Of a DNA stretch of 33,512 bases, positions 3,485 through 8,739 are shown piece by piece. The stretch is from a virus. Each line of letters begins with the position of its first letter. The first letter of the stretch is position 1. The position numbers and the translations under genes are program-made. The notes beneath the pieces were generated by a model. The model searched no databases, had not been told where the DNA came from, and saw only the letters and a list, made by a program, of their open reading frames with translations. The stretch lies in the IMG/VR virus record IMGVR_UViG_3300021226_000065, positions 1 through 33,512 of that record. The stretch is one strand, 5' to 3'.

Positions 3485-3700
3485 CTATTCGTGAGGATAT
3501 TCGTCAGTAGTTGAAACAGTAACCAAGCCGATATGCCTTAAATCCATCTCAGTATTCAACCCTAAATTGTAGAAATGTGCGCCCCACATAATGCAAATTC
3601 TTGCGCCTTCTGCATAACTGCCTTTTCCTATTGTCTTAAGAATGTGCCGTTCTGCCTCTGTGAACTTAATCAGATTATGTTTTGTCTCTGGTTTTTGCAC
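3485..3700 (-). CDS. Small protein of unknown function (71 aa), last gene of the minus block
   Basis: ATG at 3700, inside the 3' end of the resolvase gene (26-base overlap). MQKPETKHNLIKFTEAERHILKTIGKGS has a helix resembling a DNA-binding or regulatory start, and the C-terminus ends DEYPHE. No family is recognised. The overlap implies coupled translation with the resolvase. Confidence 0.6.
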   Translation of the reverse strand: MQKPETKHNLIKFTEAERHILKTIGKGSYAEGARICIMWGAHFYNLGLNTEMDLRHIGLVTVSTTDEYPHE

Positions 3701-4163
3701 TTCTTAACCCTTTTACTTGCTGTCTCCAATATTCCCCAATGAGTAGGGCTTCGGCTAGGTTGTTGTCCTTCTTTCGCTTTAACGGGGCTTCTGGCCAGAA
3801 CATACGGGCTATATCGAGAGAATCCTCTTTGTCGTGTATGTGATAAAACCCCTTCCACACTTGGGGACGCACCATGTGGCAAGGATATGCGGTCAACTCA
3901 CAAATGGCGGTTATTGCACCTACTGCCCTTGCAAATGTCCACATGGCAGAGGCTGATTGACCTGGGCGACTGTATAGCATCTCAATGGCTATCTCTGCGC
4001 CTTCCTTGGGGTCTATTGCCCTCAAAAGTGCGTTTTTAAGCACCATTGCCCTAATGTGCTTGTCTTGGTGCTCAATCATAAAAGATTCAATGTAATTACC
4101 CTCTGAATCTAAAACACCCACCGCACCCGTGGCACTTGCGGGGTCTACGCCAATAAAAACCAT
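3675..4163 (-). CDS. RuvC-like Holliday junction resolvase
   Basis: At 162 residues it matches the usual size of RuvC-type nucleases. The RNase H-fold motifs are visible: IGVDPASATGAVGVL at 4-18 with catalytic D7; AIEMLYSRPGQSA at 59-71 with E61; VRPQVWKGFY at 98-107; and KKDNNLAEALLIGEY at 131-145, with D133 and E138. RuvC enzymes cut four-way DNA junctions made by recombination and replication. In a phage this resolves branched DNA before packaging and complements the ERF/exonuclease pair at 7324-8501. It lies one base after the small zinc-finger gene. Confidence 0.85.
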   Translation of the reverse strand: MVFIGVDPASATGAVGVLDSEGNYIESFMIEHQDKHIRAMVLKNALLRAIDPKEGAEIAIEMLYSRPGQSASAMWTFARAVGAITAICELTAYPCHMVRPQVWKGFYHIHDKEDSLDIARMFWPEAPLKRKKDNNLAEALLIGEYWRQQVKGLRSAKTRDKT

Positions 4164-4589: not shown

Positions 4590-4608
4590 GGGCTTCTAGT
4601 CTAGTCAT
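4360..4608 (-). CDS. Overlapping frame, N-terminus resembling small phage proteins (82 aa)
   Basis: Its ATG at 4608 overlaps the stop of the replication-like gene (ATGA), the coupling seen throughout this phage. The first half, MTRLEAHELLDRQKRGF then VNQALWVTGDT, resembles short phage proteins that begin 'M-T-x-x-E-A-H-x-L-L-D'. The second half looks like an unconstrained shadow of the gene in the other frame. Either two genes truly overlap, or one gene has a frameshift, or this frame is chance. Confidence 0.42.
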   Translation of the reverse strand: MTRLEAHELLDRQKRGFLCLPSEVNQALWVTGDTRGDFVVSSDGMEKTIHRQDEDLGETQSLYMVGEHDRRYGKEAWEAICG

Positions 4609-4961
4609 TTGTTCAGCATCCTATTAATGTAATCACGAACCGATGACGGCATGGGCGCAACATTCCTTGTGTCTTCTTCAATCTTTGCCAAGGCAGGGTC
4701 TTTAAAATTGACATTAACATTGACTGTCATATCAGGGATTTCAGCCCCATCCCACCGCATTTGATTGATGTAGACCAAGGGTGAGGGAATAAACGCACCA
4801 TCGCCCTTTTTCCATTGGTCGGTGGTTTTCATCCATTCAACGTGCTTAATAATTTGGTCAGCCTGTAAGTCTAGTTTCAGTTTGACCCATTTTGCTTGGC
4901 AAGTGGCTTTTCCACCTTTTCTTTTGCTTTTAGGCCATGCTTTCCAGAACTCTTCAAACAT
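4605..4961 (-). CDS. Replication-protein C-terminal-domain-like protein (118 aa)
   Basis: A strong AAAAGGAGTGAAGA precedes the ATG at 4961, even though that site lies inside the upstream zinc-ribbon gene. FEEFWKAWPKSKRKGGKA (2-19) and GAFIPSPLVYINQMRW (56-70, with QW at 49-50) form the signature of the helical domain found at the C-terminus of phage replication initiators, often with a DNA-binding domain in front. Here that domain is a separate protein. It probably helps recruit host replication proteins, but this is inference. The C-terminus SSVRDYINRMLNK is basic and helical. Confidence 0.72.
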   Translation of the reverse strand: MFEEFWKAWPKSKRKGGKATCQAKWVKLKLDLQADQIIKHVEWMKTTDQWKKGDGAFIPSPLVYINQMRWDGAEIPDMTVNVNVNFKDPALAKIEEDTRNVAPMPSSVRDYINRMLNK

Positions 4962-5074
4962 TCTTCACTCCTTTTAATGATTTGATACCTACCACAATCT
5001 CCACAAGTCCATGCTTCCCTGTTACCAGTTAGTTCATGCTGTCTTACTATCCCTCCACATTGACATACTCTCAT
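4877..5074 (-). CDS. Zinc-ribbon protein (65 aa)
   Basis: ATG at 5074. MRVCQCGGIVRQHELTGN and REAWTCGDCGRYQII give two cysteine pairs (C4/C6 and C24/C27), spaced as in a zinc ribbon. The ribbon occupies residues 1-33. The remaining lysine- and serine-rich tail overlaps 85 bases of the next gene and includes that gene's ribosome-binding site. Similar short ribbons occur beside phage replication genes. A nucleic-acid-binding role is inferred. Confidence 0.7.
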   Translation of the reverse strand: MRVCQCGGIVRQHELTGNREAWTCGDCGRYQIIKRSEECLKSSGKHGLKAKEKVEKPLAKQNGSN

Positions 5075-5482
5075 CTAGTTATCCCTATGTAGCCTTTTGG
5101 TGAGTGTTGGAACAAAGCATAGCCTTACCGCATCAAAATGAGGGTTCGCTTTTGCTTTGGATGTAGCCTTTCGGAGCCGTGTCATCACATCGCATTGAAC
5201 AGACTTAAATGGCTTAGAGGCGCATAAAGCGAGGCTCTTACCACTACCACCGAGTTCTATTCTTAGCCCACTCTCCCTGCTCTGGTTCGCTCGTGTTACA
5301 GGGTATCTCATGCCTAACCACCGACGTTCCGCATTAGGCTGTCCAAAAGCAAAAACCCCGCAAGATGCTCTGTGGTCTTGGCTCTTGGCGAGAGCAACAA
5401 CAAGACGATTGAAATCATTCAAAAGACTCGTCATGCTGTACGACAAGACCACACAGAAACCTGCGGGGTTTAATGATTTCAT
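5075..5482 (-). CDS. Doubtful 135-aa open frame over a structured region
   Basis: The frame runs from an ATG at 5482 to a TAG that directly abuts the next ATG. It has no recognisable ribosome-binding site, unlike most genes here. Its sequence (for example MKSLNPAGFCVVLSYS, then many scattered R, S, A and C) resembles no family. Its first 43 codons cross a long inverted repeat. I think the region is more likely a structured RNA plus untranslated leader, but coding cannot be excluded. Confidence 0.22.
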   Translation of the reverse strand: MKSLNPAGFCVVLSYSMTSLLNDFNRLVVALAKSQDHRASCGVFAFGQPNAERRWLGMRYPVTRANQSRESGLRIELGGSGKSLALCASKPFKSVQCDVMTRLRKATSKAKANPHFDAVRLCFVPTLTKRLHRDN

Positions 5483-5504
5483 CGCCCAGATGCCACTCTA
5501 GACG
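5345..5504 (-). ncRNA. Candidate structured RNA, about 160 nt
   Basis: Arms 5353-5380 and 5444-5471 match as inverted repeats at 24 of 28 positions. They form two 10-bp stems (AAACCCCGCA/TGCGGGGTTT and TGTGGTCTTG/CAAGACCACA) separated by an 8x8 internal loop. The 63-base cap contains GCTCT/AGAGC and TTGAA/TTCAA hairpins, the latter extended by GACGA/TCGTC. On the minus strand the outer stem runs into TTTTTGCTTTT (5355-5345), as at an intrinsic terminator. A TATAAT box lies at 5511-5516. A promoter, a folded core and a terminator together suggest an independent small RNA or an antitermination leader. I recognise no named class. Confidence 0.5.
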
Positions 5505-5510
5505 GATTAG

Positions 5511-5538
5511 ATTATACATAGTTCCTTGGATAAACCAA
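5511..5538 (-). promoter_or_regulatory. Candidate promoter reading into the structured RNA
   Basis: On the minus strand a perfect TATAAT (5516 down to 5511) has TTGGTT (5538 down to 5533) 16 bases upstream. The -10 box overlaps the last codons of the winged-helix gene ending at 5512. A transcript would start near 5504. Confidence 0.45.
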
Positions 5539-5889
5539 ATTGTCGCCAAATTTACTAGGGTATTTCAGGAAATCAAATGCACCTACCCTATTGCCTGACT
5601 GCTTTAGGTCAGCCCCATCGTAGAGTTCTGTGGTTGTGCATGCGCTAATCTTGGTGGCAACTGGTCTTGGCATCTTCTTCTCTTCCACCTTGGCAACCCC
5701 GAAGCCTGTGATGTGATAGTAATCTCCTATCAATACCGCATAACCCCAGTTCTCTATGTCATTGAGATACTTCTCATAGTGATGGCCTTGGTTTCCTACG
5801 CCCTGAGAGGCATGGGTAAAGTCCTTGAGTGAACAAGATGAATATGCTAGCCTTTTGAGTATGGTCATGTGACCAAGTTTGAGTTCCAT
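5512..5889 (-). CDS. Winged-helix DNA-binding protein (125 aa)
   Basis: ATG at 5889 with AAGGA six bases upstream. Residues about 9-64 look like a winged helix-turn-helix: ILKRLAYSSCSLKDFTHA, then a recognition-type helix HHYEKYLNDIENWGYAVLI and the wing GDYYHITGFG. The C-terminal part (VATKISACTTTELYDGADL, then PSKFGDNLVYPRNYV) matches the tail of a phage family I have seen beside replication genes. It is the first gene of the minus block and sits beside the divergent promoter region. It may control that region, which is inference. Confidence 0.72.
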   Translation of the reverse strand: MELKLGHMTILKRLAYSSCSLKDFTHASQGVGNQGHHYEKYLNDIENWGYAVLIGDYYHITGFGVAKVEEKKMPRPVATKISACTTTELYDGADLKQSGNRVGAFDFLKYPSKFGDNLVYPRNYV

Positions 5890-5907: not shown

Positions 5908-5946
5908 GTTGACAGCCTATCCTAATGCCAAAAATAGTTTGTCAAC
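5908..5946. promoter_or_regulatory. Divergent promoter region inside an inverted repeat
   Basis: GTTGACA (5908-5914) and TGTCAAC (5940-5946) are a perfect 7-bp inverted repeat, and each half holds a consensus -35 TTGACA. Plus strand: TTGACA 5909-5914 with AATAGT at 5933-5938, spacer 18. Minus strand: TTGACA at 5945-5940 with TAGGAT or GGATAG 15-17 bases downstream. The -10 boxes are weak. The overlap means one bound protein or polymerase could block both directions. Confidence 0.5.
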
Positions 5947-7140: not shown

Positions 7141-7327
7141 TTATTCAACATTTTTAATGAACATCGAAAGATCAGTGAAAACCCTAAGTGAAATGTGCCT
7201 AAATAAGCAATATACTGGGTTCTATTCAGAGATTAACACCATCATTTCAAACCTGATTGGTCTTAGTCATTGGATAGGTCAAGAGCAAGTTAAACAGAGT
7301 CAATATTTAAACAGGAGTAAAGAATGA
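7130..7327 (+). CDS. Small helical protein before the recombination genes (65 aa)
   Basis: ATG at 7130, overlapping the previous gene by 11 bases. MLNDYSTFLMNIERSVKTLS continues as a helical protein with INTIISNLIGLSHWIGQEQV. There is no clear ribosome-binding site. The TGA at its end overlaps the ERF start. The role is unknown. Confidence 0.6.
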   Translation: MLNDYSTFLMNIERSVKTLSEMCLNKQYTGFYSEINTIISNLIGLSHWIGQEQVKQSQYLNRSKE

Positions 7328-7890
7328 ATGTATATCAAAAACTAAACGAGGCGAGAGCCAAGTTCCACAAAAAATCCCTCAAGAAATCAGGCTTCAACAA
7401 GTTTGCTGGTTACAGTTACTTTGAACTGTCAGACTTCGTAATCCCTGCGCTAGAAATCTTCAATGAAGTAGGTCTTACTTCTGTTGTTAGATTTGGTAAA
7501 GAGATTGCAGAGTTCATTGTCATCAATGTGGACAAACCTGAAGAGATCATTGTTTTTACAAGCCCAATGTCAGAGGCCAATCTAAAGGGTTGCCATCCTG
7601 TGCAAAATTTGGGTGCTGTTGAGACGTATATTTCTCGCTACCTTTGGGTACATTGCGTCCTTCATATTGTTGAGCATGATGCCCTTGATAGCACTACTGG
7701 TGCAGTAGATGAAGAAGGCACTCCTGATGAGGGACGGATGCTTGACTACATTGCGGCTATTCAAGCAACTACCACAGTTGATGAACTAAAGAACATCTAC
7801 ATAGAAGCATTTGCGGCTACTGATGGCAACAAGGCATGGCAGACCAAGATGATTGCCGCCAAAGATGCTAAGAAAAAGGAGTTGAAATGA
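7324..7890 (+). CDS. erf: ERF-family single-strand annealing protein
   Basis: ACAGGAGTAAAGA precedes the ATG. At 188 residues it is of normal ERF size. Family motifs are clear: KKSGFNKFAGYSYFELSDF (20-38), VQNLGAVETYISRYLW (93-108) and VEHDALD (116-122). The C-terminal 60 residues are an acidic linker and a lysine-rich helix. ERF proteins anneal complementary single strands in phage recombination and can circularise injected DNA. Its stop overlaps the start of the YqaJ exonuclease, the classic annealase-exonuclease pairing. Confidence 0.9.
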   Translation: MNVYQKLNEARAKFHKKSLKKSGFNKFAGYSYFELSDFVIPALEIFNEVGLTSVVRFGKEIAEFIVINVDKPEEIIVFTSPMSEANLKGCHPVQNLGAVETYISRYLWVHCVLHIVEHDALDSTTGAVDEEGTPDEGRMLDYIAAIQATTTVDELKNIYIEAFAATDGNKAWQTKMIAAKDAKKKELK

Positions 7891-8501
7891 GTGAAGAAAT
7901 AATCCAAGGCACAGACGAATGGAAGATGCTCAGACTAGGCAAAGTGACTGCTAGTCGAGTAAAAGATATTGTTTCCACTACAAAGACAGGCTATTCAACA
8001 AGTCGAGACAAATACATGACTCAGTTGCTGTTAGAACGCCTTACAAACTCAGTAGCAGAGTCATATAGCAACGATGCAATGGCTTGGGGCGTAGAGAATG
8101 AACCCTTTGCTAGAGCCGCTTATGAGTCCAAGATGGGCGTACTGGTTGATGAGGTGGCATTTGTCAACCATCCAACGATTGAGCAGTCAGGAGCATCCCC
8201 AGACGGGATTGTTGGAGAAGGTTTGGTTGAACTGAAATGCCCAATGTCGCATACACATTTGGAAAGCATACTGGGTGGCTTAGACGATCAATATAAGGTG
8301 CAAGTAAATTGGCAGATGGCTTGCACAGGTGCTAAATGGACAGACCTATGTTCATTTGACCCAAGATTTCCCGCAGAATTGCAATTAGTCATTAAGCGTT
8401 TTGAGCGTGATGATGCCTTTATTGCAACGCTGGAAAAAGAGGTTATCAAGTTCTTGGCTGAACTCGATGACAAGTTAAATAAAGTTAAATCAAGAGGTTA
8501 A
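7887..8501 (+). CDS. YqaJ/lambda-exonuclease-type recombinase nuclease
   Basis: AAGGAGTTGAA precedes the ATG, which overlaps the ERF stop. The PD-(D/E)XK core is visible: [14 protein letters not shown] at 67-80 (E70, E72), [19 protein letters not shown] at 101-119 with D106 and E115-x-K117, then [15 protein letters not shown] at 135-149. The N-terminal [17 protein letters not shown] matches the YqaJ start. The enzyme degrades one strand from duplex ends to give single strands for ERF to anneal. At 204 residues it appears complete. Confidence 0.92.
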
Positions 8502-8502
8502 T

Positions 8503-8739
8503 ATGGAAAAAAGAGACAACTCAGGAGTGTTGTTTAAAAACGACAAGAAGGAACAGGAGAAACATCCTGACTACAAAGGTAGCATCATGGTAGACGGAAA
8601 CGAATACTGGTTGTCTGCTTGGATAAAAGAAGGCAAGTCTGGCAAGTTTATGGGCTTGGCAGTATCACCTAAAGATGGTCAGCCACCAGTAGGTAAACCA
8701 TTGCCTAAAGATTTAGAAGATTCTGACATACCCTTCTAA
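8503..8739 (+). CDS. Small protein with an SSB-like C-terminal tip (78 aa)
   Basis: It starts one base after the exonuclease stop, behind [25 protein letters not shown] is followed by a beta-rich middle ([17 protein letters not shown], then [12 protein letters not shown]). The protein ends DLEDSDIPF, very like the DDDIPF tail with which bacterial SSB recruits repair and replication proteins. It is too short for a standard SSB fold, but the first 60 residues could be a reduced OB-like barrel. With ERF and YqaJ it completes a recombination cassette. The ssDNA-binding role is inferred. Confidence 0.75.

Follow-up and report, generated by a model that had tools for sequence, protein, structure and literature searches.

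A structured RNA family with a predicted promoter and terminator precedes the replication genes of uncultured phages

Genomic context of the conserved block

The window, i.e. the whole 33,512-base stretch of DNA that was analysed, is a virus record (IMG/VR IMGVR_UViG_3300021226_000065) with head, terminase and recombination genes, and its plus strand encodes an Erf-like annealing protein, a RecE-like exonuclease and SSB at 7324-8739. On the minus strand lie the genes for a RuvC-like resolvase (3675-4163), a replication initiation protein (4605-4961; PHROG 9474, E 9e-15) and a 65 aa zinc-ribbon-like protein with CxC motifs (4877-5074), and just upstream of these replication genes, on the same strand, is a structured RNA of ~160 nt, here called module A (5343-5504, from its inferred start at 5504 to the end of a T-run). 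The gene for the 65 aa protein is the first gene downstream. The conserved block spans from the -10 box of module A to ~5070, and since a profile search returned many loci that match only the first part, it is made up of two modules, the other being a second structured RNA beyond the terminator with covarying helices of its own (module B1, 5087-5342, minus strand). The preliminary description of this locus had overlooked module B1, although conservation extends through it (5342-5087) for ~250 nt beyond the feature described.

The typical order among related loci is module A, a module B of one of several types and a replication-initiation gene. The initiator is found downstream in most loci read, and a small gene of the 4877-5074 type may intervene; the operons that follow contain methylases, nucleases and NinB/RusA-like genes, as judged from the sequences rather than by library comparison. 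In several loci a small Cro-like regulator (phrog_409, E 7.5e-12) lies directly upstream of module A, whereas L049 and L053 have a terminase gene upstream. In the window, the minus strand upstream of module A encodes a 125 aa protein (5512-5889) which has its stop codon inside the module A -10 box and no match in Pfam or PHROG; relatives of this protein are found upstream of module A in ~25 loci. Further upstream, between the divergent operons, there is a TTGACA ... TGTCAA inverted repeat (5909-5945, plus strand), possibly an operator over a plus-strand promoter.

Promoter, terminator and fold of module A

Including its -10 box, the module A block consists of this box, hairpin P1, the P2 domain and a U-tract (window 5516-5343). 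The TATAAT which the preliminary description had placed just upstream of the RNA is present at 5516-5511 on the minus strand, and matches the consensus in five or six of six positions in 106 of 111 relatives. The accompanying -35 element is weak in the window (TTGGTT, 5533-5538, 3/6 matches, 16-nt spacer); in the relatives the best -35 score averages 4.29/6 versus 2.95 in shuffled sequences, with a perfect TTGACA in 30/111. P1 starts 5 nt past the -10 box in 93/111 sequences, and with the usual promoter spacing the RNA therefore begins with P1, in agreement with the earlier prediction of a start near 5504. The T-rich terminator that had been proposed on the minus strand likewise recurs in our analysis: at the 3' end of module A a GC-rich stem leads into a T-run, and this U-tract (TTTTTGCTTTTGG, 5343-5355, minus strand) is kept whatever module follows. 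A simple terminator scan missed it because the loop of this terminator is itself a folded domain of ~95 nt. An intrinsic terminator (P2a plus U-tract) thus sits between the -10 box and the first gene, as sequence features, and from these features we infer that module A is a transcription unit running from near 5504 to the terminator at 5355-5343.

The helices that the preliminary description had placed were located as described, and the fold is strong: the folding energy of the minus-strand RNA 5480-5345 is -60.5 kcal/mol, compared to a mean of -32.3 for shuffled sequences (z -8.4), and none of 200 shuffles was as good. The P1 hairpin (5483-5504) pairs 5504-5497 with 5490-5483 around an invariant GUGGCA loop. 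The P2 domain (5353-5471) coincides exactly with the 119-base core recognised earlier and comprises the terminator stem P2a (5471-5460 with 5364-5353), the nearly invariant P2b (5456-5444 with 5380-5368), P2c (5439-5428 with 5408-5396) and the hairpin P2d (5395-5381), all on the minus strand. The further hairpins ascribed to this core do exist, but P2c and P2d actually form a three-way junction, and the P2c apical loop is engaged in a pseudoknot with a segment upstream of P2. The symmetric 8x8 internal loop of the preliminary description was not borne out, as most of it is paired across the family (alignment columns 58-156, 59-155, 61-153 and 62-152), and the column pair 58-156 covaries.

Covariation of the helices and the pseudoknot

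An alignment of 98 distinct module A sequences was compared with the named structure of 55 pairs. In this alignment 97.0% of paired cells can pair, versus 89.6% after shuffling and 33-47% in slid registers, and changes on both sides were found for 23 pairs in 406 cells, versus 107 in the control. The covariation score was 0.278, which none of 500 shuffles reached, versus 0.135, and an unsupervised consensus fold recovered identical nested helices. Compensatory change is heavy in P1, P2a, P2c and the pseudoknot, so that the stems do show the compensating changes among relatives which the preliminary description had suggested looking for. With regard to the departures from Watson-Crick pairing within helices, G-U (568) is far more frequent than A-C (33), and the minus strand is therefore the RNA strand. 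P2b, P2d and the P1 loop hardly vary and are hence uninformative about pairing; this near-invariance suggests either a bound partner or tight packing. The invariant UGGC of the P1 loop (5496-5491) and GCCA of the P2d loop (5390-5386, both minus strand) could form a kissing interaction, which is beyond the reach of covariation because neither ever varies.

The pseudoknot links the hypervariable segment after P1 (5474-5481) to the apical loop of the terminator domain, in P2c (5410-5417, both minus strand). As the sliding and shuffle controls allow incompletely for relatedness, changes in six pseudoknot pairs were also counted on a tree for which the tested columns had been left out. This gave 145 double changes from pair to pair versus 17 to a mismatch, while sliding the partner by one or two bases left 4-13 such double changes and 127-140 to mismatch. 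One strand has two conserved partners that compete for it: columns 20-24 (window 5486-5482, minus strand) pair either within the lower part of P1 or with columns 112-117 (an alternative pairing with 5408-5404 which extends the pseudoknot), and these pairings are mutually exclusive. The alternative column pair 21-116 is AU in 32 sequences, GC in 23 and GU in 16, with zero mismatches. This competing pairing does not involve the terminator stem P2a.

The overlapping reading frame and other readings of the conservation

Module A is overlain by a 135-codon reading frame which is open in the window, and a protein product of this frame could have been what is conserved. When this frame was used as query, 240 related stretches were found in IMG/VR, but the matches jump between frames and stop codons abound, and the frame is intact in only one of 53 non-redundant homologues, namely in the window itself. 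Length differences among module A copies are not multiples of three, and differences are spread nearly evenly over the three codon positions (0.19, 0.20 and 0.25). There was no match to a Pfam or PHROG family, and what was found is the opposite of a conserved frame over stems that do not covary, which makes the protein reading next to inconceivable. Suspected likenesses to peptides of Moraxella, Neisseria and Pasteurellaceae prophages, and to Ash/Icd-like frames over C4 RNA, were unsupported, with no phage or plasmid match for either. The adjoining replication-initiation gene might instead point to a palindromic element acting at the DNA level, such as an origin, a packaging site or an operator; we regard this as very improbable, given the strand asymmetry of the G-U and A-C pairs, a pseudoknot which is not a DNA palindrome and a block that runs from promoter to T-run.

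Occurrence and database standing of module A

Module A was present at 228 IMG/VR loci with 149 distinct sequences, where contigs overlap in part, so that the number of loci does not equal that of phages. It measures 155-166 nt among relatives, and travels as a block of promoter, RNA and terminator, with or without module B1. Neither the window nor 41 related loci matched any of the 4227 families of Rfam 15 at gathering thresholds, and searches with three stretches at relaxed E-values gave no credible Rfam match; the Rfam search advised in the preliminary description thus yielded no family. Module A was not found in records of cultured phages and plasmids, and an exact-pattern search of bacterial genomes, which diverged copies would escape, gave 0 matches. 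A search with the replication gene gave one relative, on a MAG contig of Comamonadaceae that lacks module A. We found no published description of module A in the open-access literature. As the stems and pseudoknot covary, the -10 box is fixed in its spacing, the T-run is conserved and no Rfam family matches, the data support the earlier proposal of a new structured RNA that brings its own promoter and terminator, and, on the sequence comparisons presented here, module A is a real structured RNA and represents a new family absent from Rfam.

Module B1 and its replacements

Module B1 is the usual successor of module A, but is missing from 66 loci, most of which carry a different structured-looking sequence, falling into two main groups (B2 and B3) and singletons. 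A promoter scan detected no minus-strand promoter for B1, although the same scan also overlooks the promoter of module A. As B1 covaries, lies past the terminator and has no visible promoter, polymerase has to get past the terminator on at least some occasions.

B1 contains a direct repeat of 7-11 nt, located after GGCTCC and after CACCA, as seen in 82 distinct loci; in the window both copies read AAAGGCTACAT (5161-5171 and, at the 3' edge of B1, 5087-5097, minus strand). The two copies vary in concert among loci, with an overlap of 7.43 nt within a locus versus 4.16 nt between loci, and no consistent complementary partner was found for them in cis. We do not favour a view of B1 as a mobile element whose guide equals its own 3' flank, since copy 2 tracks copy 1 rather than the downstream gene, and the constant kind of location of B1 also speaks against it.

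With regard to the replacements, B2 (GGCCCAGACCGTCAGGGCGCG...) is a conserved leader of at least 200 nt which follows module A in L044, L067, L136-L140 and others. Record MW202484.1, which has a related replication gene, lacks module A and has B2 downstream of this gene (33624-33873), in a stretch annotated as a hypothetical protein. B3 (GGGACTGATTGGATTGCAGACC...) is conserved over >270 nt before the replication gene, following module A in L088, L190, L204, L211, L221 and L255. In L178 a small frame of 76 codons has apparently been inserted after module A, ahead of a B2-like start.

Unrelated RNAs with the plan of module A

Module B1 is also found without module A, and in most of the 38 such loci with enough upstream sequence other RNAs directly precede B1. 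Two further RNA families were recognised there (L285-L341), with alignments judged by eye, in which a 5' hairpin and the terminator domain have complementary loops and a T-run follows. In the first family (20 sequences) the 5' hairpin loop complements the loop of a large terminator hairpin, and the pairing sequence differs by locus (GTGATAAG with CTTATCAC, GTCGTGT with ACACGAC, GTAGCGGA with TCCGCTAC). The second family (7 sequences) has the same plan (CATTGCGGC with GCCGCAATG, CATCGCAGC with GCTGCGATG, CGTAACGGC with GCCGTTACG). In L306 the pair TGTTCACGGC with GCCGTGAACA was picked by an automatic self-complementarity test on too narrow a stretch. Several of these RNAs start at promoters which have their -35 element inside the terminator of the preceding gene, and the RNAs preceding B1 gave no match in Rfam.

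Discussion

Of the three roles suggested in the preliminary description, a small regulatory RNA, a put-like antitermination RNA and an attenuator, we favour the last. Module A may be best understood as a conditional terminator, i.e. an attenuator, in the leader of the replication operon, with a stable RNA as its terminated product, a reading that we hold with moderate confidence and favour because readthrough is needed to reach B1 and because of its place in the leader. Transcription on the minus strand would run from the TATAAT at 5516-5511, starting near 5504, to the terminator at 5355-5343. The transcript would fold compactly, with P1, the P2 domain and a pseudoknot joining linker and P2c loop, and P2a followed by the U-tract would act as terminator. 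Most polymerases would stop there, yielding a stable ~160-nt RNA, and readthrough into B1 and the replication genes would be limited to a regulated fraction. The switch would most likely lie in the exclusive pairings of 5486-5482 (lower P1 versus extension of the pseudoknot). Transcription, termination, regulated readthrough and the switch are all steps that we infer. Neither of the two pairing states touches P2a, which leaves the link from switch to termination unexplained, and a terminator with an apical domain of ~95 nt is unusual. Readthrough could also be constitutive leakage, or come only from transcription that starts at an upstream promoter.

The terminated 160-nt RNA might instead act in trans, either on RNAs of the host or phage or on a protein, with readthrough into B1 being incidental. 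Its ends both look protected (by the 5' hairpin and the 3' terminator), P2b, P2d and the P1 loop scarcely vary, as would be expected for a bound partner, and promoter, RNA and terminator move as one block; however, module A was not seen in isolation, and nearly always heads a leader, usually with a second structured module and then a same-strand operon of replication type, which makes a trans-acting small RNA somewhat unlikely. A put-like antiterminator, in which the nascent RNA binds polymerase and lets it pass both the RNA's own terminator and those further along the operon, would fit where module A lies, after a Cro-like gene and before the replication genes like putR of phage HK022, and also a covarying RNA downstream to which polymerase can come only by readthrough. 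The put RNAs are ~70 nt long with two stem-loops, and putR lies ~270 nt downstream of PR (PMC9378689). Module A resembles HK022 putL and putR as a structured early-operon leader RNA between promoter or cro and the replication genes which may act on the transcribing polymerase, and in many loci, although not in L049 and L053, the Cro-like gene directly upstream conforms to a position downstream of an early promoter. In size and shape it departs from them, as only module A is pseudoknotted, with P1, P2a-d and a three-way junction in its 155-166 nt, and has its own promoter and a basal intrinsic terminator in which it ends. No sequence likeness was found among phage records either, and we consider the put-like reading improbable.

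There are also similarities with other systems. At PR'-tR' of phage lambda (6S RNA) a promoter lies near an intrinsic terminator, a short terminated RNA is made and the genes beyond are transcribed via readthrough. Module A shares the short terminated RNA and the genes reached only by readthrough, but precedes replication genes, whereas lambda PR'-tR' controls late genes and needs Q; we know of no pseudoknot in the lambda leader. The antisense RNAs P4 CI and P1 C4 act through complementary repeats, and likewise involve an untranslated leader of ~400 nt before replication-type genes and control by termination. A mechanism of this kind is not supported here, as the B1 repeats have no consistent complement in cis and no Rfam match was obtained. 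The ToxI RNAs of type III toxin-antitoxin systems share the order of promoter, pseudoknotted RNA, terminator and gene, but module A is a single unit without tandem repeats and is followed by a module B and replication genes rather than such a toxin gene. GOLLD, ROOL and OLE are large ornate RNAs, some of them from phages and lakes (PMC12286853); module A is smaller, has its own terminator and matches no Rfam family. The known kind to which module A belongs is the terminated, structured leader RNA, within which it is new.

Taking the RNAs that precede B1 together, we tentatively propose a new class of phage leader RNA with three or more exchangeable families unrelated in sequence, module A among them, in which the hypervariable docking may serve as a self-recognition code and the unit may gate the entry of polymerase to the replication genes. 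Members of such a class would combine a promoter, a hypervariable 5' segment docking on the loop of their own terminator domain and a terminator, and would always be followed by another exchangeable structured RNA and, in most cases, a replication gene. With such a code, the RNA of each phage would recognise itself and not that of a rival.

Module A adds a well-supported RNA family which is widespread in uncultured phages and was previously hidden under spurious reading frames. The leaders to which it belongs are modular, with terminator-type RNAs and second structured RNAs shuffled among phages, and keep the pseudoknot between 5' part and terminator loop despite fast sequence change. If these leaders gate the replication genes without a dedicated protein, they would add a new case of phage development controlled by RNA alone.
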